Assembly (NCBI RefSeq): GCF_002197985.1
Contig: NZ_NBYK01000002.1
Location: 1-64,000 of the forward strand
Source of the DNA: Halopseudomonas aestusnigri
GTDB taxonomy: Bacteria; Pseudomonadota; Gammaproteobacteria; Pseudomonadales; Pseudomonadaceae
Reading direction: 5' to 3'
Length of the DNA: 64,000 nt
The position numbers were made by a program, and so were the translations under genes. The notes beneath the pieces are model-generated. The model ran no database searches. It saw only the letters and a list, made by a program, of their open reading frames with translations, and had not been told where the DNA came from. Below are positions 12,991 to 60,400 of this stretch, one piece after another. Position 1 is the first letter of the stretch; each line of letters starts with the position of its first letter.

Positions 12991-14007
12991 TCAGCCAACG
13001 CGTGCCTGCATCTGCTCCAGCAGCGCATCGTACAGCGCCAGCGGCTTGTCGGTGCGGTGGATCGTGGTGCTCAGCTCGCGGCGGAAGTGGCGTGCGCCGG
13101 GCAAGCCTTGAAACAGCCCGAGCATGTGACGGGTGATGTGGTGCATCTGGCCACCGGCGGCGATGTGGCGCTCAATATACGGCCGCATCAGTGCCATCAC
13201 CTCAATCCGTGACGGCAGCGGATGGTCGTCACCGAAGAAGCGGTGATCCACCTCGGATAGCAGCCAAGGGTTGTGGTACGCCTCGCGACCGACCATAACC
13301 CCATCAACGTAAGACAGCTGAGCTTGCATGACCTCCAGGTCGGTCAGGCCGCCATTGAGGCTGATTTCCAGCTGCGGGAAGTCGCGCTTGAGCTGATGCA
13401 CTACCTCGTACTTCAGCGGCGGTATCTCGCGATTCTCCTTCGGCGACAGCCCCTCCAGAATGGCAATGCGCGCATGCACTGTGAAGCTGGTGCAGCCTGC
13501 GGCGTGAACAGTGCCAACGAAATCGCACAGTTCCTCGTAACTCTCCCTGCCGTTAATGCCGATGCGATGCTTGACCGTAATCGGCGTGCTGCAGGCATCC
13601 TGCATCGCCTTCACACAGTCACCCACCAGCGCCGGATGCGCCATCAGGCAGGCGCCGATCATATTGTTCTGCACCCGGTCGCTGGGGCAGCCGACGTTCA
13701 GGTTGACCTCGGCGTAGCCGGCTCGCTCGGCCAGCACCGCGCACTGAGCCAGCTCCTGCGGATTACTGCCGCCCAATTGCAACGCCAGCGGCTGCTCCTC
13801 GGCGCTGTATCCCAGAAACCGCTCGGGATCACCATGCAGCACCGCACCGGTTGTCACCATCTCGGTATACAGCAATGCGTGCCGGCTGATCAGCCGCGCA
13901 AAGTAGCGATAGTGGCGATCAGTCCAGTCCATCATCGGCGCAACGCTGAAGCGGCGATTGGGCTCTTGGCGCGTGGTTACTGGGCTGGAGGGCGATTCTG
14001 CGTGCAT
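12991..14007 (-). CDS. dusA: tRNA-dihydrouridine synthase A, chimeric 5' end
   Basis: DusA makes dihydrouridine at positions 20/20a of tRNA, using FMN and NADPH. The 338-residue enzyme has [13 protein letters not shown] (FMN site), the catalytic cysteine in [10 protein letters not shown] (Cys107), [12 protein letters not shown] and [13 protein letters not shown]. The prophage is integrated in codons 10-26. DNA encoding the first nine or so residues (MHAESPSSP) therefore comes from the phage attP, and the displaced host 5' end (MHPEPTSSP) is at 59103-59195. The recombined gene is complete and should work, but its promoter must now lie in phage DNA between 14008 and 14109. Confidence 0.95.
13928..13978. 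repeat. attL core (51 bp)
   Basis: Identical over 51 bp to 59116-59166. It lies inside the dusA coding sequence (codons around [11 protein letters not shown]). Sequence similarity between the two ends continues patchily beyond the core on the dusA-start side. Confidence 0.93.
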
Positions 14008-14109: not shown

Positions 14110-15231
14110 ATGGGCTCAATTATTACGCGCAAGCGCAAGAACGGATCATCGAGTCACACCGCCCAGATCAGGATCATGCGGGGTGGGGTGACAGTTTATC
14201 AGGAAAGCCAGACCTTCGACCGCAAGCAAGCGGCCAGCGCCTGGCTGAAGCGACGGGAAGGGGAGCTGGCTCAGCCGGGTGCACTTGATCGGGCGATGCG
14301 AGAGGGTGCGTCGGTTGCTGAGATGATCGATCAGTACATCGAGCAGGTTGGCGCCATGCGTCCGCTCGGCAAGACGAAGCTGGCCACCCTGAAAGCGATC
14401 GCATCGAGTTGGCTCGGTGAGGTGATGGATTGTGACCTGACCAGCCAGGTGCTGGTTGAGTACGCCATCTGGCGCGCTGGGCCGGAGGGTGGCGGTGTCA
14501 CGCCTCAAACCGTGGGCAATGATCTGTCGCACCTGGGTGCGGTACTGGCGGTGGCCAAGCCGGCGTGGGGTTATGAGGTTGACCCGCACGCGATGACGGA
14601 TGCACGCAAGGTGCTGCGCAAGATGGGCCTGACCTCCCGTAGCAAAGAGCGTAACCGGCGCCCGACACTCGATGAGCTGAACCAACTGCTACAGCACTTT
14701 GCCGATATGCAGCAGCGGCGCCCGAGTTCTATCAACATGCTGAAGGTGATCGGCTTCGCGCTATTCTCTACGCGCCGGCAGGATGAGATTACCCGGATCC
14801 TCTGGGCAGACGTGGACGACGAGCATCAGCGGGTCATGGTGCGAGACATGAAGAACCCAGGCCAGAAGATCGGCAACAATGTCTGGTGCTCGCTGCCGGA
14901 TGAAGCTTGGGCAATCCTGCAGAGCATGCCGCGGGGGTGTGCCGAAGTCTTCCCCTACAACAGCTCATCAGTCAGTGCTGCTTGGTTGCGTGCCTGCAAG
15001 TTTCTGCAGATCGATGACCTGCACTTTCACGACCTGCGGCATGAGGGTGTGAGCCGGTTGTTTGAGATGGCTTGGGATATCCCTCGGGTGGCCAGCGTGT
15101 CAGGCCATCGAGATTGGAACTCGCTGCGGCGCTACACGCACCTGCGCAAGCAGGGTGACAAGTACGCTGAGTGGGAATGGCTGCAGCGGATTATTGATGC
15201 GCCGGTTGATCTGGGTGCGCGAGCATCCTGA
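14110..15231 (+). CDS. int: Tyrosine-recombinase integrase
   Basis: A 373-residue phage integrase that carries out site-specific recombination at dusA. The N-terminal part (1-60) resembles an arm-binding domain, about 65-150 is the core-binding SAM-like domain, and the catalytic domain follows. The catalytic set is complete: Arg in FSTRRQDEITR (about 222), HDLRHEG (His307, Arg310), His333 in SGHRDW and the nucleophile Tyr342 in RRYTHLR. It starts 103 bp from the dusA start, divergently, with AAGGGAAA just before the ATG. Its 3' end overlaps a convergent small gene by 41 bp. Integration at dusA is a known habit of one integrase group. Confidence 0.95.
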   Translation: MGSIITRKRKNGSSSHTAQIRIMRGGVTVYQESQTFDRKQAASAWLKRREGELAQPGALDRAMREGASVAEMIDQYIEQVGAMRPLGKTKLATLKAIASSWLGEVMDCDLTSQVLVEYAIWRAGPEGGGVTPQTVGNDLSHLGAVLAVAKPAWGYEVDPHAMTDARKVLRKMGLTSRSKERNRRPTLDELNQLLQHFADMQQRRPSSINMLKVIGFALFSTRRQDEITRILWADVDDEHQRVMVRDMKNPGQKIGNNVWCSLPDEAWAILQSMPRGCAEVFPYNSSSVSAAWLRACKFLQIDDLHFHDLRHEGVSRLFEMAWDIPRVASVSGHRDWNSLRRYTHLRKQGDKYAEWEWLQRIIDAPVDLGARAS

Positions 15232-43450: not shown

Positions 43451-46400
43451 ATGGCTGGCATCAAAGACCGCCTGATTCAGTTCATCCTGCGCGGCAAGGA
43501 TGATCTGTCGCCCGAGGCCCGCAAGGCGGCGCAGGCGCTGGAGGATGTGCAGTCACAGAGCCAGAGCCTGCGTGATGAGTTTGACCGGGCACGTTCTGCC
43601 CGCGGTCTGGCTGAGACCCTGAAGCAAACCCAGCGCGCTGCCGAGCAGGCCGAGCAGGCACTGGTGCAGAATGACCTGCAGGTGCGTGAGCTGCGTGAGG
43701 CGCTGAACCAGTCGCCGGAAGCGGCTGGTTTGGCGCAGTCCCTCAAGGATGCCGAGCGCGAAGGCCGCAAGCTGGCAAAGCAAGTGACCGCGCTCAACGC
43801 AAGCCTGAGCGATCACGAAGCCGCAGCCCGTGATGCGGGTATCGATACTGCGGATCTGGCCAACGAAGAGAAGCGGCTGGCCGCAGAGCTGGCCAAGGCC
43901 AAGGCAGCAGTGGGCGACAACACCGATGAGGTGCGGCGCCTGGAGAATGAGCTGCGCAAGGCGTCGCGGGCATCCTCTGAGTATCGTTCGCGCGTTGATG
44001 CCGCCCGCTCGGCTATGACCTCCGGTGCCAAGCAAGTGCTGGCCTTTGCTGCGGCCTACGTCTCGCTCAATGCTGCGTTCAGCCTGGTGCAGAAAGGCCT
44101 GAATCTGGTGCGCGATGGCATCTACTCGATGCTGCAAACAGGCGACCAGTTCGAGGGCATGCAGACCCAGCTCACTGCCTTGATGGGCTCCATCGAGGGC
44201 GGCGAGCAAGCAACGGAGTGGATCAAGCGCTTTACCCGTGACACGCCCCTGCAGCTGAAGGACGTGACCGAAGCGTTCACGCTGCTCAAGGCATTTGGCC
44301 TTGATCCAATGGACGGCACCCTGCAGGCCATTACCGACCAGTCCGAGAAGCTCGGCGGCGGTATGGAAAAGCTGACCGGTATCTCGTCGGCCCTCGGCCA
44401 GGCGTGGGCCAAGCAGAAGCTCCAGGGCGAAGAGATTCTGCAGCTGGTCGAACGCGGTGTGCCCGTGTGGGATCTGCTGCAGAAGGTAACCGGCAAAAAC
44501 ACCGAGCAGCTGCAGGAGCTGAGCAGCAAGGGCAAGCTGGGCCGCGATGTAATCCGCGATCTGATCACCGAGATTGGCAAGGCAGCCGAAGGCTCGGCAG
44601 CGGCCAACATGAGCCGCCTGGCAGGTATCGTCAGCAACCTGCGTGACGTGGCGGCTGACTTCCTCGATCGCATCGCCAAAAGCGGCGCGCTCGATTACGT
44701 CAAGCAGCAGCTGTTGGGCGTGGCCGATGCCATCGACCAGATGGATCGTGACGGCAAGTTGGATCAGCTGGCCACCACCCTGTCCGATGCATTCATCGAG
44801 GCGTCGGAGTGGGTCAAGCGGTTCATCGGAGACATTGCAGACTTTGACCTCAGCGAGCTGAGCGACAAGGCCAGCACCTGGCTGAGCGATCTGGGTGCCA
44901 AGCTGGACGACGCCCGCATGCGGGTGCAGCTGTTTGTGGCGCCGTTCACCACCCTGTTTCAAGGGCTGGTGGCTGGCTTCGCGGCCATTGGGCTTGCTGC
45001 CGTGACGCTGGCTAAGAACATCGCTGACCCGTTCTTGGCAGCAGGGGAGGTAATCGCTGATGCCTTCAATCTGGATTCCCTGAAAGAGAGGATCACCAAC
45101 GCCCGCAGCGAGATCACAATGCTGCAGGGCGCGCTGGTCAATCAGATCGAGCAGTCTGGCGAGAGCATCCGCAACGCATGGGACGTAACCACGCGGCATC
45201 AGGTGCGGGGCGCGCGGGATGTGACCGAGGCGGTCAAGGCCGAGACTGATCAGCAGCGCATGATGAATCAAGCGCTGGCTGATGAAATGGTCAACAACCA
45301 GCAGCTGGTGAAGAACGCCGCGATTGAAGCGGCCATCGCCGGCACTCAGGCCATCGCTGACTTTGCCGAAGCCCAGAAGCTGATCGATACCGCCACCACG
45401 GTGGAGCAGCTGCAAGGCCTGCGCGCGGCCATGCTGAGCGCGTACCAGGACGGCGCAATCACCCAGCAGGAATACGCAGCCGGCCTCGGCATCGTTGCCG
45501 ACAAGCTGGACGAAGTAGGGGGCGAGGCCGCCAAAACCGCCAAGTCCCTCTCTGATGTGATCGACGAGCTGGAAGACTTCGCCGGCGTCCAGAAGGCCAT
45601 CAGCAGCGCCAAAACAGACGTTGATATCAGCAAGCTGCGCACCGCCATCAGCTCGCTGTATGAAGACGGCAAGCTGTCGGTTGACGAGTACAACAAAGCC
45701 ATCAAGGCGCTGGAGAAGCAACAGGACAAGCTGAGCGAATCGACCGGCAACCAGGCCGACGCCCAGACAAACCTTGAGAAGCAACTGCAGGCCGTGACCG
45801 ACGCGCTGGCCGAGCAGGCAGCTGCAGAGCAAGCCGCAGCAGATGCCAGGGCAGAGCAGCAAGCAGTCTTCCGCGACGCCTTCAGCACCTTCTTCGACGA
45901 GGTGATGACCGCCGCCCGCTCGCCGCTGGCCGAGCTGAGTGATAAAGCCCTGCAAGCGTTTGACGCGCTCAAGGGCATCAGCAGCGTTGATGTGGATCTG
46001 GACACCAGCAGTCTCGAAGGCACCGCCGCGTCGCTGAACATCGTCAACGACCAGCTGGCGGACCTGCAAAACAACCTCGATAACCGCATGCGTGGGCCGT
46101 TTGCGCGCTGGGCAGATGAAACCCTGTTCGCCAGCCGCAAGCTGCAGGAACAGTTCCTCGAGCAGAAGCTGGCACTGCAGCGGCTGATGGACGGGTATGA
46201 GAAGGGAGCGGTCTCGCTGGCCAGCTTCAAGGTGCAGGCCGTTGGCCTCAAGTCCAGCCTTGACCTGCTGGACGCCTCCGACTTCTCGGAGCTGGACAGC
46301 GCCCTGGAGTCGGTCAAGCAGCAGTTTGAGTCGGTGGCCGATAGCGCCAAGGGCACGCTCGCCAGCATCAGGGACGAGCTGGACAAAGTGCGCGGCAACG

Positions 46401-48391: not shown

Positions 48392-50395
48392 ATGACCATC
48401 ACCGTCAATGACGTGAAAATCCTCAAGTCCCAGCGCCTGACCGATGAAAACGACGGCGGCGGGCGCGCCACCGGTGATGCCGTGGTCGACGGTGAGGTGA
48501 ACAATCTGTTCCCCGATATCAGCCGGCTGGACCGCACCCTTGGTCGCATTGCCCTGCGCAAAGTGTTTGCCGGTGTGCTGACCGAGAATGCCGACGCTTA
48601 CCTGGGTGCGCACTCCATCGTCACCAAGGCCCCGGCGGATCCGCGCGTGGCCGTGCTGCTGTTCAACAGCAACAGCCAGACCGATGAGCGCTCCGACGCC
48701 CGCTCGGTGATCGAGGGCTATGTGGTCCCGTCGACCGTTGCGCAGTTTGAGCTGCTGGGCGATCAGTATGCGGGCCAGCGCGCAATCACTGGTATTCAGC
48801 GGCAAGAGGCCCGGGTGCCGGAGGTGGGTGATGTGTTCCAGCTCACCAGCGGTGCCAACAGCCAATACGTGCGCGTGCAGGCGGTGGAGGCTGCGCTCGA
48901 GGAGTTTGTGTACGACTACGGCAACGGCAACTTTGTTAACTTCACCCGGCGCCGCCTCTCGATCACGATCACCGCGCCGCTGAACGTCAAGTTCCCGGGC
49001 GGGCAGGCTGTGCCCGGTGGCACCAGCGCGACCAACCTGGCCAACGAACCCAAGAGCGTGGTGCTCGCCACGCAGGTTGCAGACTCGGCCCGGTACTACG
49101 GCATCAGCCCGCTGGCTGCCGCGATCACCGCTGGCGACATGACTGTCAATGTGGATTCGGTCTACTCGCAGTTGGTACCCAGCGCGGTGAAAGAAAGCGC
49201 GCTGACCAATCAGCTCGGCGGTGCCCGCAAGCGCTACGTTGTGCCGGCCAGCCCGACCAGCCGCACGGTTACGCTGCAGTTCGCGCAGGTGACGGCGGGC
49301 CAGAGCCGCAGCTTTATCACCCACGGCGCCGCCCTGGGTAGCATGTCGCTCAGCATTAACGGCGGCGTGTATGCAGACGAAGGGCAGGGCGAGCTGACCT
49401 GGCGCAGCGGTGCCAACAACTTCACGCGCATCACCGTTGATTACGAAACGGGCGAGATCAACGCCTACCGGTCCAGCACCTACACCGGCTCGGCCAGCCT
49501 CACCTATCAGCCGGCAGCAGCGGTCACAGGGGAGAGCGTCACCGGCGAGATCGAAGTGGTGCTGGCCACCCGGGGCTTTGCGTACACGCTCAACCTTGCC
49601 GAGGCCAAGCCGCGCCCCGGCACGCTGTCGATCAGCTTTATGGCGCTGGGCAAGTGGTATGATCTGCGGGATCTGGGCAACGGCGAGCTGTCGGGCGAGG
49701 GCAGCGGCACGGTTGACTTTGCCACCGGCGCGGTGAGCATCAGCCTCAACGCCTTGCCGGATGCCAACACCAGCCTGGTCTACACCTACGTTTGCCAGAT
49801 CGACGACAACCTGCAAACCCACACCGGCGCCGGTACCGCGCCGCAGATTCGCGTAGAGCACCAGCTGCCGCATGAGGGCGTAGAGCCTGGCAGCGTGGTG
49901 GTCACCGTGCTGCAGGGCGGCGTCAGCCAGACCCTGCTGGATCAGGGCGACGGCACCCTGGCCGGCGCAGCCGGCACCGGCACCGTGGTCTACCTCACCG
50001 GCACCGTGCGGCTGGAGCTGGCCAGCACGCCCGACCAGGGCAGCAGCATCGTTTTCGACTACAACCGCGGCGGCGTGGATGTCGATACCCCGCTCACGGC
50101 AGCGCCGGACTCGGGCGGCATCGTCAGCGGGGTAATCCCCGGCGCGCCCCTGCAGCCCGGCAGCGTGAACATCCGTTGGCAGTCCACGCGCAAATCGCTG
50201 GTGCCGTCCGGTACCGATGGCGTCGCCTACAGCGGCGTGCAGCTGGTGGACTACGAAGCCAACGACGACGGCGTCGGCAACTGGATCGGCTTCATCGGCA
50301 GCATCAACTACACAACCGGGGCGTTCAGCCTGCAGGTTGAGCAGCTCTACGACTACGTAGAGCACGAAGTCCAATACAACATGACCGAGGTATAA
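48392..50395 (+). CDS. Large tail protein, 667 residues
   Basis: A beta-rich virion protein (MTITVNDVKILKSQRLTDEN; NGGVYADEGQGELTWRSGAN; repeated short units such as YDLRDLGNGELSGEGSGTVD and LLDQGDGTLAGAAGTGTVVY). The repeats suggest tandem Ig-like or beta-sandwich modules. I start at ATG 48392 (GGAG seven bases upstream). It and the next protein have similar repeat content and likely build the tail tip. Exact role is not known. Confidence 0.65.
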   Translation: MTITVNDVKILKSQRLTDENDGGGRATGDAVVDGEVNNLFPDISRLDRTLGRIALRKVFAGVLTENADAYLGAHSIVTKAPADPRVAVLLFNSNSQTDERSDARSVIEGYVVPSTVAQFELLGDQYAGQRAITGIQRQEARVPEVGDVFQLTSGANSQYVRVQAVEAALEEFVYDYGNGNFVNFTRRRLSITITAPLNVKFPGGQAVPGGTSATNLANEPKSVVLATQVADSARYYGISPLAAAITAGDMTVNVDSVYSQLVPSAVKESALTNQLGGARKRYVVPASPTSRTVTLQFAQVTAGQSRSFITHGAALGSMSLSINGGVYADEGQGELTWRSGANNFTRITVDYETGEINAYRSSTYTGSASLTYQPAAAVTGESVTGEIEVVLATRGFAYTLNLAEAKPRPGTLSISFMALGKWYDLRDLGNGELSGEGSGTVDFATGAVSISLNALPDANTSLVYTYVCQIDDNLQTHTGAGTAPQIRVEHQLPHEGVEPGSVVVTVLQGGVSQTLLDQGDGTLAGAAGTGTVVYLTGTVRLELASTPDQGSSIVFDYNRGGVDVDTPLTAAPDSGGIVSGVIPGAPLQPGSVNIRWQSTRKSLVPSGTDGVAYSGVQLVDYEANDDGVGNWIGFIGSINYTTGAFSLQVEQLYDYVEHEVQYNMTEV

Positions 50396-56015: not shown

Positions 56016-56572
56016 TGGGCTTACCTGGCAAGTACAAGCTGGCAGCGCAGATCGGCCTCACCGTCTTGTTGCTGATCGGTCTGGTCGGGTCAGGCTTCTG
56101 GGTCGGCTGGAGCTGGAACGGCGCAAACGGTCGAGCAGACGTGGCTGCAGCTGAGAAGCTGCACTCCGACACGCTGGGCGAGATTGCCCGAGCCGGGGCG
56201 CAGCAGCTGCGGCAGCAACAGGAGCGCTATGTAGAGCTGCAGGTGCAGCTGGCCGAGCAGGACAAACAGCACAATCAGGAGCTTACCAATGTACAGAAAA
56301 GCAATGTTCAGCTGGCTGTTGATCTCGCTGCTGCTAAGCGGCGGTTGTCAGTCCGTATCACCAGCCCTGCAGCCAGTGCCAGTGGAGTGCCTGCCGGTAC
56401 CAGCGCCGCCAGCGTGGATGATGGAGCCGGAACCAGAGCAGACATACACCCAGCAACTGCAGCAGGTCTTGTCCGAGTGACTGGGCGGGCTGATGAGTGT
56501 CGTATAAGGTTAACTGCGTTGCAGGCTTGGGCGCGAAAGGTGGCGCCCGAGTGGGAGCCGGACGGGCAATAA
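56012..56572 (+). CDS. Inner-membrane spanin (Rz-like)
   Basis: A 186-residue type II membrane protein: one N-terminal helix (AAQIGLTVLLLIGLVGSGFW), then a periplasmic coiled coil (about 45-110: QQLRQQQERYVELQVQLAEQ). The C-terminal part overlaps the embedded Rz1-like gene. Together they would fuse inner and outer membranes at lysis. Confidence 0.82.
   Translation: MMGLPGKYKLAAQIGLTVLLLIGLVGSGFWVGWSWNGANGRADVAAAEKLHSDTLGEIARAGAQQLRQQQERYVELQVQLAEQDKQHNQELTNVQKSNVQLAVDLAAAKRRLSVRITSPAASASGVPAGTSAASVDDGAGTRADIHPATAAGLVRVTGRADECRIRLTALQAWARKVAPEWEPDGQ
56289..56480 (+). CDS. Outer-membrane spanin lipoprotein (Rz1-like), nested
   Basis: A 63-residue protein in a different frame inside the Rz-like gene. 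It has a signal sequence with lipobox LLLSGGC (Cys20) and a short proline-rich mature part (PALQPVPVECLPVPAPPAWM), both typical of Rz1. Full nesting is the lambda arrangement. Confidence 0.85.
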   Translation: MYRKAMFSWLLISLLLSGGCQSVSPALQPVPVECLPVPAPPAWMMEPEPEQTYTQQLQQVLSE

Positions 56573-56591
56573 ACCCGCACTGGGCGGGTTT
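56571..56591. terminator. Terminator between lysis genes and the anti-CRISPR island
   Basis: An 8-bp stem (AAACCCGC / GCGGGTTT) with a 5-nt loop between the rightward spanin gene and the leftward acrIF11-like gene. T-tracts are short, but its convergent position supports a shared terminator. Confidence 0.6.
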
Positions 56592-57012
56592 AAATCACCT
56601 CAATTGTGCAGCCCGGCAGGCAGAGGTAGGTGGTGCCATGCTCGTCCAGCATCTCAACGCTGGTGTAGCCGAGGCGGGCTGCCAGTTGGCCGCGCAGACG
56701 TTGAAACTCCCAGCCCTGATCGGCTACATCTTCCGGCTCGCAATCGTCGAGTGTTTCGCAGCCCGGTGCCATGATTGCGTTGGCAACATCTTCATTGCCG
56801 TCAGCAATTTCCAGAGCCGCGTCCCACGCGCCTTCGATCTCATAGTTCAGTTCGTAATCCGTCAGGTGGCGGGGCGATATAATGCGATGCAGTACGTCGC
56901 CGTGGCAGCCAGCAACGTCTTCATCCGGAGAGGCAAACACGCCACCGAACAGGCCTTCGTTGCGGATCTCGGTTACTGCGCTGAAGCCGCCGTGGAAAAG
57001 TTCTTTGCTCAT
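56590..57012 (-). CDS. acrIF11: AcrIF11-family anti-CRISPR (ADP-ribosyltransferase)
   Basis: A 140-residue homologue of AcrIF11, which ADP-ribosylates Cas8f of the type I-F Cascade and blocks PAM recognition. Compared from memory with the P. aeruginosa protein (132 residues), the N-terminus (MSKELFHGGF), LHRIISPRHLTDYELNYEIE and the C-terminal GYTSVEMLDEHGTTYLCLPG line up almost without gaps. A small insertion lies around 85-100. The aspartate corresponding to AcrIF11 Asp115 is Asp123. It is transcribed leftward from promoter copy A, with AAAGGAG before the ATG. Confidence 0.9.
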   Translation of the reverse strand: MSKELFHGGFSAVTEIRNEGLFGGVFASPDEDVAGCHGDVLHRIISPRHLTDYELNYEIEGAWDAALEIADGNEDVANAIMAPGCETLDDCEPEDVADQGWEFQRLRGQLAARLGYTSVEMLDEHGTTYLCLPGCTIEVI

Positions 57013-57014
57013 GA

Positions 57015-57154
57015 TGTTCTCCTTTCGAGACTCGCCGGGTTCCGCCGGTGCGGTGGGTAGGCTTCTTGCCTCTCCATGGGTCTAATTATATACACACCAA
57101 TTAACCGCGCAAGGATTATGTGTGTATAAATTAAAGAGGCCGACGAACGGTCAT
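57015..57154 (-). repeat. 140-bp promoter/leader repeat, copy A
   Basis: Matches 58872-59011 with only two differences (57023 and 57109). It contains the promoter, an inverted repeat, a leader of about 70 nt and the Shine-Dalgarno of the gene to its left, and extends into the stop codon region of the gene to its right. Confidence 0.95.
57085..57128 (-). promoter_or_regulatory. Promoter and operator of the acrIF11-like gene
   Basis: Minus strand: -35 TTGCGC (57107-57112), 16-bp spacer, -10 TATAAT (57085-57090). The inverted repeat TATACACAC (57089-57097) / GTGTGTATA (57120-57128), with a 22-bp gap, brackets the -35 box and touches the -10. The ribbon-helix-helix protein of the island is the obvious candidate binder. 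Confidence 0.75.
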
Positions 57155-58197
57155 TCCTTCACCGGCCGGACTACCGCTGGCATCGCGTCATAGTCCTCGA
57201 TCCCGACGGGGATCGGCGGCATCCAGCGCAGATCAAACTTGCGCTCCGCAACGCGCTCCGGTGCTTTTGGCCCCTTCCAGAATCCATGCCAGTGCGCGCG
57301 GCGCACATGCGGGCGGGGGCGGGCTTTGCCCGTCTCCGGGTCTATGCTCTGCTGCCCCGTCTCTGCCGCGTGATACGCTCGGCGCAGGGCTGCGCCGATG
57401 CGCACGCCCACGTCCCACTCGCGGGTTTTCTCAGCCGGAAACAGCCGCCAGCCCTGTTTTGTGCGTTTGGGCTGCGGGTTGCTCGGGCGTTGGCCTGGGG
57501 TGCCGATCTCGTCCGGCTGGCTGCACAAAAACAGCAGCAGGCTGATGACGTGCTCCAGCTCGTCCAGCAGCGCGAGCAGGCCGGCCTGATCCTGTCGGCC
57601 CTGCTGCAGCTGCCCGGTCGCCCTGGTGTAGCCGGCCATCGTCGCCTGACGCATGGACTCATCAAGTGCGCGGTCCAGCGCCTCGGCCAGTGGCCAGCTA
57701 CCCAGATGCAGGGGTAGGGGTGTCAGCTGGTCATCGCAATCAAACACCAGCCGCAGCTCATGCCCGCCGGAGTTGACGTCGTATTCCAAGTGCGCGAAAA
57801 ACCCGTGCAGCGGCTGGCCGGTAAACGTCAGCCCGGGCGTCTCGATGTACACGCACCACTCAGGCAGGTGGTAGAGCACCTGGCAGGGTATGTCCCTGTC
57901 CACCGGCGTCTCGGCAACTCGCTCATATAGGGCCGGGTCAAACCGATAGATGCCCTGTGTCACCCGCCACGCGGCCAGCGCTCCAAGCCTGCCCACGTCT
58001 GCTGCCTGCGCAAGCGGGTCAGCGCCCGGGCTGGCAGTCACAATCGCGTGTACCCCGCCGAGCGGCAGAAAGCACCACTCCGGCCAGTCTGGCAGGTCCT
58101 TGCCTTTGTCCTGCCGGAAGGCGTCAATCTGGCGCCACGCGCCGGGGTACAGCTTCCCGGCGGTGATGAGGTGTTGCTTGGGCCGGGGTGCGCTCAC
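57151..58197 (-). CDS. acrVA2: AcrVA2-family protein, putative type V-A anti-CRISPR
   Basis: A 348-residue protein starting at GTG 58197, in a GTGA overlap with the regulator gene. It fits the AcrVA2 family: GKLYPGAWRQIDAFRQDKGK, CFLPLGGVHAIV, GALAAWRVTQGIYRFDPALY, LPEWCVYIETPG, PANPQPKRT-like SNPQPKRTKQGWRLFP, and the terminal RPHVRRAHWHGFWKGPK with DLRWMPPIPV. Moraxella AcrVA2 lowers Cas12a production by acting on its nascent message. Homologues are common on plasmids and phages of hosts without Cas12a, so its target here is open. The assignment is from memory of family sequences. Confidence 0.78.
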   Translation of the reverse strand: MSAPRPKQHLITAGKLYPGAWRQIDAFRQDKGKDLPDWPEWCFLPLGGVHAIVTASPGADPLAQAADVGRLGALAAWRVTQGIYRFDPALYERVAETPVDRDIPCQVLYHLPEWCVYIETPGLTFTGQPLHGFFAHLEYDVNSGGHELRLVFDCDDQLTPLPLHLGSWPLAEALDRALDESMRQATMAGYTRATGQLQQGRQDQAGLLALLDELEHVISLLLFLCSQPDEIGTPGQRPSNPQPKRTKQGWRLFPAEKTREWDVGVRIGAALRRAYHAAETGQQSIDPETGKARPRPHVRRAHWHGFWKGPKAPERVAERKFDLRWMPPIPVGIEDYDAMPAVVRPVKE

Positions 58198-58583
58198 TGC
58201 TCGCCCTCCGCCTGCGCCCGGGCAATCTCGATCGCACGGCGGATCCCGGCAGACAGATTGCCGTCGCCCAGCTGTTGGGCGTATTCGACTGACTCGTCGT
58301 CGATAAACACATTCCGGCGCTTGCCGTTGACTGTCGGCACCGGACCTGGCTTACGCTTTGCGATCTTCATCAGTTCCTTGTTGACCGTCATTTGCTCTCT
58401 CGCTCGCTCTGCAGCTGTCATGGATTTATAAGCTGCTGTCTGTGCAGCCCACGCTTCGGCAAGGGTCGATGCTTCGATATCCATTTCTGCTAGCTTGCTG
58501 TAGTCGCCCTCGAGGGCGGCGCATGCCGCCTTGTATACCGCTTCCGCCCCGTGCTCTCTGACCGCGTGCTGGATAGTGATCAT
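58194..58583 (-). CDS. Ribbon-helix-helix protein, candidate regulator of the island
   Basis: A 129-residue protein. The N-terminal 70 residues are helical (AVREHGAEAVYKAACAALEG). The C-terminal part, NVFIDDESVEYAQQLGDG followed by NLSAGIRRAIEIA, is a typical ribbon-helix-helix DNA-binding domain. A basic linker (KIAKRKPGPVPTVNGKRRN) precedes it. GAGGAGG lies before the ATG. It sits between the unknown 91-residue gene and the acrVA2-like gene, the place of an Aca autorepressor. Binding to the TATACACAC repeats is inferred. Confidence 0.7.
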   Translation of the reverse strand: MITIQHAVREHGAEAVYKAACAALEGDYSKLAEMDIEASTLAEAWAAQTAAYKSMTAAERAREQMTVNKELMKIAKRKPGPVPTVNGKRRNVFIDDESVEYAQQLGDGNLSAGIRRAIEIARAQAEGEQ

Positions 58584-58593
58584 GTCTGCCTCC

Positions 58594-58869
58594 TCAAGCC
58601 ATGCGGGATTTTACGATTTGGATTTCCAGCTGAGTGACGCCAGCCTCCGCTTCGATCTTGGCCAGGTCCTTGGTGGCCACCTGGCCGTTTTTGCTGTACT
58701 TGGCAAGGGCGGCGCCCCATGCAGCTTTGTAGGTGGTGATGTTGCCGATGATGTGCTGGATGCGGGCTTCAGCCTTGGCTTCCGCTTCGGCCTGGGCAGC
58801 AGCCAAATGAGGGTTGTAGCCTTCGCCGCCTTCGTTGTGGGTCAGGTTGTACGCGGTAACTTTGTTCAT
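58594..58869 (-). CDS. Unknown 91-residue protein, first gene of the anti-CRISPR operon
   Basis: Directly behind promoter copy B with GGAG before the ATG. Sequence: MNKVTAYNLTHNEGGEGYNP, an alanine/glutamate-rich helix (AAAQAEAEAKAEARIQHIIG) and a charged C-terminal helix pair. No family recognised. It shares its promoter type with acrIF11 and its operon with the regulator and acrVA2-like genes, so it is a candidate new anti-defence protein. Confidence 0.65.
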   Translation of the reverse strand: MNKVTAYNLTHNEGGEGYNPHLAAAQAEAEAKAEARIQHIIGNITTYKAAWGAALAKYSKNGQVATKDLAKIEAEAGVTQLEIQIVKSRMA

Positions 58870-58871
58870 GG

Positions 58872-59011
58872 TGTTCTCCGTTCGAGACTCGCCGGGTTCC
58901 GCCGGTGCGGTGGGTAGGCTTCTTGCCTCTCCATGGGTCTAATTATATACACACCAATTAACCGCACAAGGATTATGTGTGTATAAATTAAAGAGGCCGA
59001 CGAACGGTCAT
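58872..59011 (-). repeat. 140-bp promoter/leader repeat, copy B
   Basis: Second copy of 57015-57154 (138 of 140 identical). The -10 TATAAT is at 58942-58947, the -35 is TTGTGC at 58964-58969, and the inverted repeat arms are 58946-58954 and 58977-58985. It drives the 91-residue gene, the regulator and the acrVA2-like gene. Confidence 0.95.
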
Positions 59012-59034
59012 GATGGGGTGTGCGCGGATTGGTG

Positions 59035-59053
59035 TTGCTACAAATTTGCTACA
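59035..59053. promoter_or_regulatory. Probable integrase arm-type sites, right
   Basis: Two direct copies of TTGCTACA (59035-59042 and 59046-59053), the octamer found three times near attL. They lie 63-81 bp inside attR. An AT-rich stretch (59058-59100) separates them from the core and could bind IHF. Confidence 0.55.
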
Positions 59054-59102
59054 GGCGGTTTTATATTTATTATATCTGTATGATTTAATTGAAAAATAAA
59101 AC

Positions 59103-59195
59103 TCAGGCGCTCCAATCCATCATCGGCGCAACGCTGAAGCGGCGATTGGGCTCTTGGCGCGTGGTTGCTGGGCTGGATGTGGGTTCCGGGTGCAT
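59103..59195 (-). pseudogene. dusA: Displaced 5' end of host dusA
   Basis: A 30-codon stub starting [20 protein letters not shown] and stopping two codons after the core (DWSA-stop). It is the original host start of dusA left behind by integration. The intact gene now uses a phage-derived start ([10 protein letters not shown]) at attL. Confidence 0.85.
59116..59166. repeat. attR core (51 bp)
   Basis: Exact match to 13928-13978, marking the right end of the prophage. Confidence 0.93.
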
Positions 59196-59458
59196 TTCTG
59201 ACTGCCTGTTAGGTTGCTGAACTCTGCTGCCAACCCCTTTGCGCGCTGCTGGCGTTGATGCTGTGAGAGGCCTGCGATGGTGTCCGACGGGCTGGGGGCG
59301 AGCAGTTTATCAGGAAAGTCGGTGCTCGGCGGTAGCCTGTCCGATCGGCGGGGCTGCTATGCCTTTGGCGTCGGGCTTGCGTTGGGTCTGTATCGATTGC
59401 TGTCCCTGTCACGATTGCATCCTTACAATGCGACCCTTTTCGCAAAAGCTCAGTGTTT
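59167..59458 (+). other. Host flank with a possible integrase-gene scar
   Basis: About 290 bp without a convincing gene. A 16-bp exact match to the int gene (CAGTTTATCAGGAAAG, 59303-59318 versus 14192-14207) lies in a frame reading AVYQES, like TVYQES of the integrase. The sequence just beyond the core also resembles the phage side (GCATTT...ACTGCCTGTT). An older, decayed dusA-integrated element is a possible source. No clear endA promoter was seen. Confidence 0.4.
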
Positions 59459-60400
59459 ATGAAGTCTCTGATCGTTTCCCTTTTTGTTCTGCTGTGTGTT
59501 GTTCCCCATGTGTTTGCCGATGCGCCCGAGGGGTTCTCTGCGGCCAAGGCTGTGGCCAAGCGGCATATTTTCTTTGATGAGTTTGCCTTGGAGCAGGGTG
59601 ACCTGTACTGCGGTTGTCGCTGGGACTGGGTAGGGCGATCCGGGGGGCGAATTGATGCCGATTCCTGCGGCTACGAAACCCGGGCCCAGCAGGTTCGGGC
59701 TGAGCGCATTGAATGGGAGCATATCGTGCCGGCCTGGGTATTCGGTCATCAGCGCCAGTGCTGGCAGAGCGGTGGTCGGCGCAATTGTACGGCGCAGGAC
59801 CCGGTATTCCGTGCCATGGAGGCTGATTTGTTCAACCTCTATCCCGCCGTCGGCGAGGTTAACGGCGATCGCAGCAACTACCAGTATGCGATGGTACGCG
59901 GGGTATCGCCGCAGTATGGTGCCTGCCCGTCAAAGATCGACTTCAAGGGGCGGGCTGCCGAGCCGCGGGATGAGGTCAAGGGGCTGGTCGCGCGGGTGCA
60001 TTTTTACATGTACGACCGTTATGGGTTGTCGATGTCCCGTCAGCAGCAGCAATTGCTGATGGCCTGGGATCGGCAGCATCCGGTGAGTGAGTGGGAGCGT
60101 GAATGGAGCGATCGTACCGCACGGGTGATGGGCCATGAAAATCCGTTTGTGACAGGTGCAGCCGTGTGGACGCGTGGCCATCGGCCGTCCCGTTCTGGCC
60201 TGGTATCGGCAGCGCCGGAGACTGGTCAGCCGGCGTCCATCAGGTCAGGTGTGATCATCGGCAACCGTAACAGCCGGGTATATCACCTGCCGGACGGCTG
60301 CCCGAGCTACGATCGAGTCGCGGAGCGTAATCAGGTGCATTTCGAGAGTGAAGAGCAGGCGCAGAGGGCGGGCTTCAGCAAGGCGGGCAACTGCCGTTAG
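59459..60400 (+). CDS. endA: Endonuclease I family, secreted or periplasmic
   Basis: A 313-residue nuclease with a signal peptide (cleavage near VFA|DAP). The EndA core has CGCRWDWVGRSGGRIDADSC, the active-site region RIEWEHIVPAWVFGHQRQCW, DLFNLYPAVGEVNGDRSNYQ and FKGRAAEPRD. A C-terminal extension (about 255-313) with VIIGNRNSRVYHLPDGCPSY looks like the small Ada-type metal-binding module found on secreted nucleases. It degrades extracellular or periplasmic DNA. It starts at ATG 59459; the GTG six bases earlier is less likely. Confidence 0.88.
   Translation: MKSLIVSLFVLLCVVPHVFADAPEGFSAAKAVAKRHIFFDEFALEQGDLYCGCRWDWVGRSGGRIDADSCGYETRAQQVRAERIEWEHIVPAWVFGHQRQCWQSGGRRNCTAQDPVFRAMEADLFNLYPAVGEVNGDRSNYQYAMVRGVSPQYGACPSKIDFKGRAAEPRDEVKGLVARVHFYMYDRYGLSMSRQQQQLLMAWDRQHPVSEWEREWSDRTARVMGHENPFVTGAAVWTRGHRPSRSGLVSAAPETGQPASIRSGVIIGNRNSRVYHLPDGCPSYDRVAERNQVHFESEEQAQRAGFSKAGNCR

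Follow-up and report, generated by a model that had tools for sequence, protein, structure and literature searches.

The locus described here raises the question of how a temperate phage keeps its anti-CRISPR (Acr) genes under control, and against what these genes act in their own host. It lies in a stretch of 64,000 nucleotides of Halopseudomonas aestusnigri DNA (RefSeq assembly GCF_002197985.1, contig NZ_NBYK01000002.1, positions 1 to 64,000; hereafter the window), where a prophage of ~45 kb in the Halopseudomonas chromosome carries a small island of genes at its attR end. A first reading made from the letters of this DNA (the sequence-only reading) had described a leftward cluster with AcrIF11 and AcrVA2 homologues, a ribbon-helix-helix (RHH) protein and a further small protein. 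We confirm that observation as a whole; a 152-bp duplication within the island and a likely regulatory role of the RHH-like protein go beyond it. Both Acr proteins belong to, or are homologous to, families already known; the new part is the probable regulator with its operator. We consider it likely that a temperate Halopseudomonas phage has in this island an anti-defence module with two transcripts, and that the mechanism proposed below explains its parts jointly.

Four leftward open reading frames (ORFs) lie between attR and the lysis genes, as had been claimed, and they encode proteins of 140, 348, 129 and 91 amino acids (aa). These are, all on the reverse strand, the AcrIF11 homologue (56590..57012), the AcrVA2-family protein (57151..58197, with a GTG start as called), the RHH-like protein, which we propose as an Aca-type repressor (58194..58583; its stop overlaps the acrVA2-like start), and ORF91 (58594..58869). 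A direct repeat of 152 bp, with copies at 57003-57154 and 58860-59011 that are 97% identical and are read on the reverse strand, runs into the start codons of acrIF11 and ORF91; the same promoter region therefore stands before acrIF11 and before ORF91, the first gene of the run ORF91-RHH-acrVA2-like. Each copy comprises promoter, operator and leader. The operator-promoter core has the form TATACACA-N24-TGTGTATATAAT, and its arms enclose a TTG -35-like element (57085..57128 in the first copy and 58942..58985 in the second, both on the reverse strand; promoter judged by eye). From this arrangement we read the island as two putative transcripts under one control signal; however, this reading needs to be taken cautiously, as the -35 element is weak and a promoter scanner listed neither of the island promoters.

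We found that the 140-aa protein matches NCBIfam family NF052490 (E = 1.1e-28; 100.9 bits, above the family cut-off of 50) and the AcrF11 structure 6kyf in the PDB (E = 6.5e-52). The proposed AcrIF11 homology, with the catalytic aspartate conserved as Asp123, is thereby upheld: D123 is invariant in an alignment of three sequences and aligns, counted by hand, with D120 of the 6kyf chain. We take this D120 to be the catalytic D115 of the sequence-only reading, on the assumption that the 137-residue chain has five extra N-terminal residues. The size given for AcrIF11 in a passage of PMC6538845 is 132 aa. The residue that AcrIF11 modifies is N250 of Cas8f (passage of PMC13131331), and the Cas8f of the host has both K247 and N250, within KPQN, in an alignment to P. 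aeruginosa Csy1 (7jzw) that needs no gaps. The homologue thus has in common with AcrIF11 of P. aeruginosa (6kyf), an ADP-ribosyltransferase inhibitor of type I-F, its family, the aligned catalytic Asp and the N250 in the host Cas8f, but differs in genus (Halopseudomonas) and in its regulator, which is RHH-like here; a passage of the AcaFinder paper (PMC9765179) lists AcrIF11 with Aca1 and Aca4-7, all of which are helix-turn-helix (HTH) proteins. A phage relative, L208 (IMGVR_UViG_3300020369_000012, 1592-1957), has lysis genes that share 95% identity with the window as far as 56901 and then diverges; its AcrIF11 frame, without approximately the first 37 residues, adjoins genes that by eye look HTH-like and ImmA-like.

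The type I-F locus of the host looks complete. Csy1 (E = 1.7e-129) and Cas1 (E = 1.4e-10) were found by profile search, and the same run of ORFs contains, as judged by eye, cas2-3, csy2, csy3 and cas6f, apparently full length and of the expected size and order; Csy1 is present in three of the 37 genomes of the genus, the host's own included. The single CRISPR array has 49 identical repeats and 48 spacers. When the spacers were compared with the window, allowing up to six mismatches, five of the 48 matched, all of them inside the prophage, with one or two mismatches each and a CC protospacer-adjacent motif (PAM) throughout; positions 1-8 are free of mismatches in four of the five. The protospacers belong to spacer 47, probably the leader-proximal one (44006..44037, reverse strand; one mismatch, position 9), spacer 10 (44308..44339, reverse strand; two mismatches, positions 13 and 25), spacer 23 (46161..46192, forward strand; one mismatch, position 1, in the seed), spacer 18 (46205..46236, forward strand; one mismatch, position 30) and spacer 6 (49650..49681, forward strand; two mismatches, positions 13 and 19). 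As a lysogen with five matching spacers should not survive an active I-F system, the system is probably inhibited in nature, and the obvious agent would be the AcrIF11 homologue.

The host I-F system might be off for another reason: it could be silent or defective, or be blocked by an Acr protein encoded elsewhere in the genome, with the AcrIF11 homologue in a minor part. The cas ORFs were judged by presence and length, and the rest of the genome lay outside the scope of the search for other Acr families; moreover, all five spacers have one or two mismatches, so that targeting may already be weakened. Nevertheless, the I-F ORFs seem to be of full length, all 49 repeats have the same sequence, four of the five spacers combine a perfect match at positions 1-8 with a CC PAM, and the targeted prophage itself encodes AcrIF11 with its catalytic residue. 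We regard this alternative as unlikely, and inhibition by the AcrIF11 homologue as the better account of the self-targeting.

The 348-aa protein belongs to the AcrVA2 family, as proposed from the sequence; it is homologous to AcrVA2 in the PDB (7ci1, E = 8.1e-20) and matches phrog_6160 of PHROGs (E = 1.3e-56). Homology to AcrVA2 of Moraxella (7ci1/7ci2) extends over two stretches, the RPHxRRxHWHxxW region included. The protein differs from it in being 27% identical to a Moraxella phage homologue and in having a host genus without detected Cas12a: profile TIGR04330 matched none of the 37 genus genomes, a set that contains no control match either, and was over its cut-off in two of 390 genomes of the order, both in one other genus. 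A check for Cas12a in the host, suggested with the sequence-only reading, thus came back negative, and Cas8f is present. Of the reading's proposal that the island counters type I-F and perhaps type V-A systems, the I-F part gains from the complete-looking host locus and the self-targeting spacers, and the V-A part is weak. Because no Cas12a was found in the genus genomes examined, we class the protein as an AcrVA2 homologue and not as an anti-Cas12a protein, and its target is probably something other than Cas12a. It could alternatively act on Cas12a in other hosts encountered by the phage. Its homology to AcrVA2 speaks for this, but Cas12a was matched in none of the genus genomes and in just those two of the order, and we find the idea improbable.

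The joint occurrence of the two families, which had been called notable for a pseudomonad phage, is not new: Moraxella phages Mcat1, Mcat2, Mcat4 and Mcat24 were matched by both proteins. Both families thus occur in one phage there as they do here, in a different host genus, and AcrVA2 was discovered by guilt-by-association with acrIF11 in Moraxella bovoculi (passage of PMC6538845). In Mcat24 the AcrVA2 and AcrIF11 genes are ~0.3 kb apart, with a 66-aa gene between them that looks RHH-like by eye. The two families occur together in five of the 26 AcrIF11 loci, namely in the window's phage and in four Moraxella-type contigs, and AcrIF13 stands directly before an AcrVA2-family gene in a further Moraxella-type contig (L202, 2437-2781; PDB 7veh, E = 1.4e-74).

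What sets the island of the window apart is its putative regulator. An RHH fold is plausible for the 129-aa protein on the basis of its invariant N-V, D-D-E-like and G-x-G-N-x-S-x-G-I-R positions, and the AlphaFold2 (AF2) monomer model has confident helices at 96-105 and 110-127, with a per-residue confidence (pLDDT) of 94-97 over residues 91-120. Several results fell short of confirming this fold. The beta strand is without assignment in the AF2 monomer, and the monomer model had no Foldseek or VIA-align match; Pfam gave no match for the protein (E up to 1) or for 23 members of its family (E up to 0.01); the PDB held no meaningful sequence match, a later search yielding mostly designed repeat proteins; and hhalign against five RHH-like proteins reached a probability of just 77% over 21 columns, with E = 2.1e-5 for one template. 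Its matches in PHROGs and NCBIfam were weak, and at the thresholds applied neither this protein nor ORF91 matched any sequence or family in Pfam, PADLOC or the PDB. The RHH label of the sequence-only reading is therefore plausible by sequence pattern, although no library confirms it. Pfam searches also found no HTH domain in the protein (E up to 1) or in the 23 family members (E up to 0.01), for which reason we kept it out of Aca1-12. Among the 390 genomes of the order, relatives were found by single sequence in its own genome only; the profile added one weak match, with a stop inside the match.

We found that RHH genes of this family and the operator occur together whichever of the two is searched for. 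A scan of IMG/VR with the operator, thus with DNA only, returned 22 stretches, nine of which have a match to the RHH profile (seven of 20 after two contigs contained in the seed profile were dropped; L054 and L061 carry the same sequence). Among the stretches without a match, several end near the site, and others lack the -35-like element and look like chance hits. The reverse search with the RHH profile yielded 60 loci, of which 45 had 800 bp or more of flanking sequence on each side and were counted (15 of the 60 being dropped): an operator with a score of at least 15 of 20 lies upstream in 32 of these and downstream in none. The figures are 26 of 39 and none without the contigs of the DNA scan, and 18 of 31 and none after deduplication. 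These counts need to be interpreted cautiously, as 13 of the 45 loci have no scored operator, and Markov-shuffled upstream sequence has a mean score of ~12 and, at a few loci, a score as high as 16, which means that a single weak site proves nothing. Deduplication by operator sequence left 29 distinct operators, 28 of them with an RHH ORF (the exception, L123, where none was parsed, is probably a false site), and in 25 of the 28 the operator and the RHH gene are separated by one or two small ORFs, some few of these ORFs being interrelated. The presumed beta strand and the operator also vary together: Thr in place of Val in the strand tends to go with CG in the right half-site (five of six versus two of 19 loci, P = 0.002 by Fisher's exact test), a correlation that is confounded by relatedness. 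The Thr-type loci are L073, L075, L082, L109, L110 and L116, and 25 distinct RHH cores were counted, loci with the same core or unparsed ones (e.g. L078, L097) having been dropped.

Related islands in two congeners, G025 and G028, have promoter/leader DNA like that of the window. In G025 it is followed by two unknown genes and an RHH-like protein with 36% identity over 84 aa to that of the window (E = 1e-14). The G028 island encodes an AcrIF11 homologue and a 73-aa KORA/TrfB-type HTH protein (PF16509, E = 2.6e-8); its leader is kept, and its operator is a 22-bp palindrome, TATACACTCTTAAGAGTGTATA, at both promoters, that of acrIF11 included. Operator and regulator therefore change together between the islands of the window and of G028. 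Aca4 is listed with KORA and TrfB in a table of PMC9410906, and the 73-aa gene, with a KORA/TrfB-like domain beside an acr gene, can be likened to Aca4 by domain type only. A 144-aa gene of G028 (L009, 6573-7007) is RHH-like by eye and has homologues directly before RHH genes in L112, L114 and L121. Two spacers of the I-F array of G018 (L035) match the G025 locus (L008, at 8362 and 8533) with three and five mismatches and a GG flank.

Taken together, we lean slightly towards the view that a family of RHH repressors, with a 44-bp operator-promoter and mostly a covarying 5' hairpin, runs anti-defence operons in many phages; that the small genes between, ORF91 included, encode for the most part undescribed anti-CRISPR or other anti-defence proteins; and that the operator can find them without protein homology. 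If instead a repressor of the host or of another phage bound the inverted repeat, the RHH-like gene would merely be carried along, and the 13 of 45 RHH loci without an operator at the threshold would be accounted for. This is hard to reconcile with the two-way association in other phage contigs, or with G028, where an Aca4-like HTH protein goes with a different operator, and we hold it to be quite unlikely.

The neighbourhoods of AcrVA2-family genes bear on the proposed RHH family in both directions. Its profile matches in only three of 61 AcrVA2-family viral loci, the window's phage included, and in none of the four Moraxella-type IMG/VR contigs L203-L206, the first of which counts weighs against a general tie. 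Locus L101, however, repeats the order operator, small gene, RHH gene, AcrVA2-like gene, again with the RHH gene overlapping the AcrVA2-like start, before the contig end cuts the last gene. In L154 a homologue of a 185-aa gene of G025 (E = 1.7e-27) stands before an AcrVA2-like gene, and members of a gene family from the RHH operons L109 and L116 precede AcrVA2-like genes in L165, L166 and L193. Among 50 neighbours of AcrVA2-family genes compared with Pfam (50 of 72; the rest looked spurious by eye), several have HTH families and one or two RHH families, and there are unrelated domains too, such as ParB_N and a terminase subunit. In L151 an ORF that looks TnpB-like by eye (15-1283) has as its neighbours an RHH gene, an AcrVA2-like gene, a small HTH-like gene and two unknown genes.

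ORF91 had no match in PHROGs or NCBIfam, and its structure model (mean pLDDT 63) was too poor for use. Other phages have its NEGGEGYNPH motif too: L047 has it under the operator described here, and in L128, L130, L132 and L137 RHH-like genes (by eye) follow it within ~1.1 kb. We treat it as a candidate anti-defence gene and a candidate further inhibitor. Against such a role for the small operon genes, a comparison of 32 of them (29 of 30 ORFs from operator loci, ORF91 and two genes of L008) with NCBIfam and Pfam found no known Acr; there was one family match at chance level (E = 0.008) and none in Pfam. Many RHH proteins are antitoxins, and ORF91 and the RHH gene, adjacent and in the same direction, could be a toxin-antitoxin pair beside the acr genes, with the operator serving its autoregulation. 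This we find very doubtful: the same operator also stands before acrIF11, whose transcript has no RHH gene; the genes that precede the RHH gene elsewhere are diverse small ORFs, with that one chance-level match among the 32 scanned; and in L101 it is an AcrVA2-like gene that follows the RHH gene.

That the 152-bp repeat is a by-product of mosaic recombination with no regulatory meaning, as copies 97% identical, the state expected after a recent duplication, might suggest, is highly improbable, for the repeat holds a promoter-like element and an inverted repeat and reaches both start codons, and in the G028 island, too, there are two promoters that share an operator type particular to that island. 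A widespread mobile sequence was considered and rejected, as the genome has only two copies and a related form occurs in two of 57 other genomes. Among phages the repeat had no match, and among plasmids a single short one (E = 8e-4). A scan of genome contigs for the leader pattern gave six stretches; we took the one from Halopseudomonas, and no other, as related (the remaining five being three from Microbacterium and two from metagenome-assembled genomes).

After the -10 element, most of the operons examined have CAT and then a hairpin, the arms of which vary yet stay complementary. With arms set at 9 and 18 nt (a single choice) in 24 leaders, hand-picked and with near-identical ones dropped, own arms gave -6.03 kcal/mol versus -3.82 for swapped arms (standard deviation 0.35; 0 of 20,000 permutations); the 21 leaders from outside Halopseudomonas likewise gave 0 of 20,000. 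Four of the 24 (L068, L069, L091 and L106) form no such hairpin in that stretch. Three further analyses gave a structured leader little backing or none: whole-leader folding energies were unremarkable (mean z of -0.67 in the 18 longer leaders and -1.20 in the 10 shorter ones), RNAalifold on a MAFFT alignment of the leaders found two pairs, and Rfam had no match up to E = 1 in 56400-59300. Since these three approaches led nowhere, it is the arm-swap test that argues for the hairpin. The leader also occurs in G028, which lacks the window's RHH family, and so is not simply an RHH binding site; the hairpin probably adjusts the stability or translation of the transcripts.

Twelve Aca families were counted in 2022, all HTH, and many acr genes have been found through Aca proteins (passage of the AcaFinder paper, PMC9765179); the inverted repeat of Aca repressors lies within the -35/-10 region (passage of PMC9410906). 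The RHH-like protein has in common with Aca1-Aca12 that it is a small, presumed DNA-binding protein in an acr operon with an inverted repeat in the promoter, and it differs in looking like an RHH and not an HTH protein. Membership in the operon is seen in the overlap of its stop with the acrVA2-like start, in the window and in L101, and the inverted repeat is inside the core promoter as judged by eye. Its sequence and setting make it a candidate for a new class of Aca repressor. The open-access literature (most subscription papers and all preprints being outside its scope) gave no recognisable description of a phage RHH Aca and no paper on Halopseudomonas together with anti-CRISPR. The closest precedent that we found is Reg_p576, from conjugative plasmids of the pLS20 family. 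This RHH protein represses several promoters in an establishment (anti-restriction) regulon, and its authors liken it to phage anti-CRISPR control (passages of PMC8708921); it comes from Bacillus plasmids with ardC, and its likeness to the RHH-like protein is drawn from this description. In the early anti-defence regulon of archaeal viruses, a shared promoter sequence likewise marks anti-defence genes and works as bait, but the promoters are of the BRE/TATA type and the Aca8 is a predicted winged HTH (passages of PMC11065993).

The mechanism that we propose is as follows. On infection both promoters would fire, one driving ORF91-RHH-acrVA2-like and its near-identical counterpart driving acrIF11. 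AcrIF11 would ADP-ribosylate the host Cas8f at N250 and so block target binding by the type I-F system, which would allow the phage to lysogenise a host carrying five matching spacers. As the RHH-like protein accumulates, it would bind the inverted repeat around the -35/-10 region of both promoters and lower their expression, the role that HTH Aca proteins have elsewhere. The AcrVA2-like protein would most likely remove an mRNA through recognition of the nascent peptide, as AcrVA2 does for Cas12a, here probably with another target.

The prophage is bounded by a perfect 51-bp direct repeat, with the attL core at 13928..13978 and the attR core, as had been proposed, at 59116..59166; a phage integrase ORF, named by eye, lies just inside attL (14110..15231, forward strand). 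The lysis genes beside the island are Glyco_hydro_108 and Rz genes by Pfam. Between the converging stop codons is a perfect 9-bp inverted repeat, TAAACCCGC-actgg-GCGGGTTTA (56570-56592), read from the sequence. The terminator that the sequence-only reading had placed here is thus possible as far as the inverted repeat goes, but its T-run is weak and the scanner did not list it. By eye, an ORF outside attR (59453-60400) resembles a secreted endonuclease I.

The host is a natural test case, being a lysogen whose I-F array carries five spacers against its own prophage, and owing to this self-targeting the function of AcrIF11 is testable in its own host. The finding also makes it more pressing to ask what role AcrVA2-family proteins have where the host lacks Cas12a. 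If the RHH-like proteins are indeed a non-HTH Aca family with an operator of its own, another set of phage operons would be opened to the search for acr genes.

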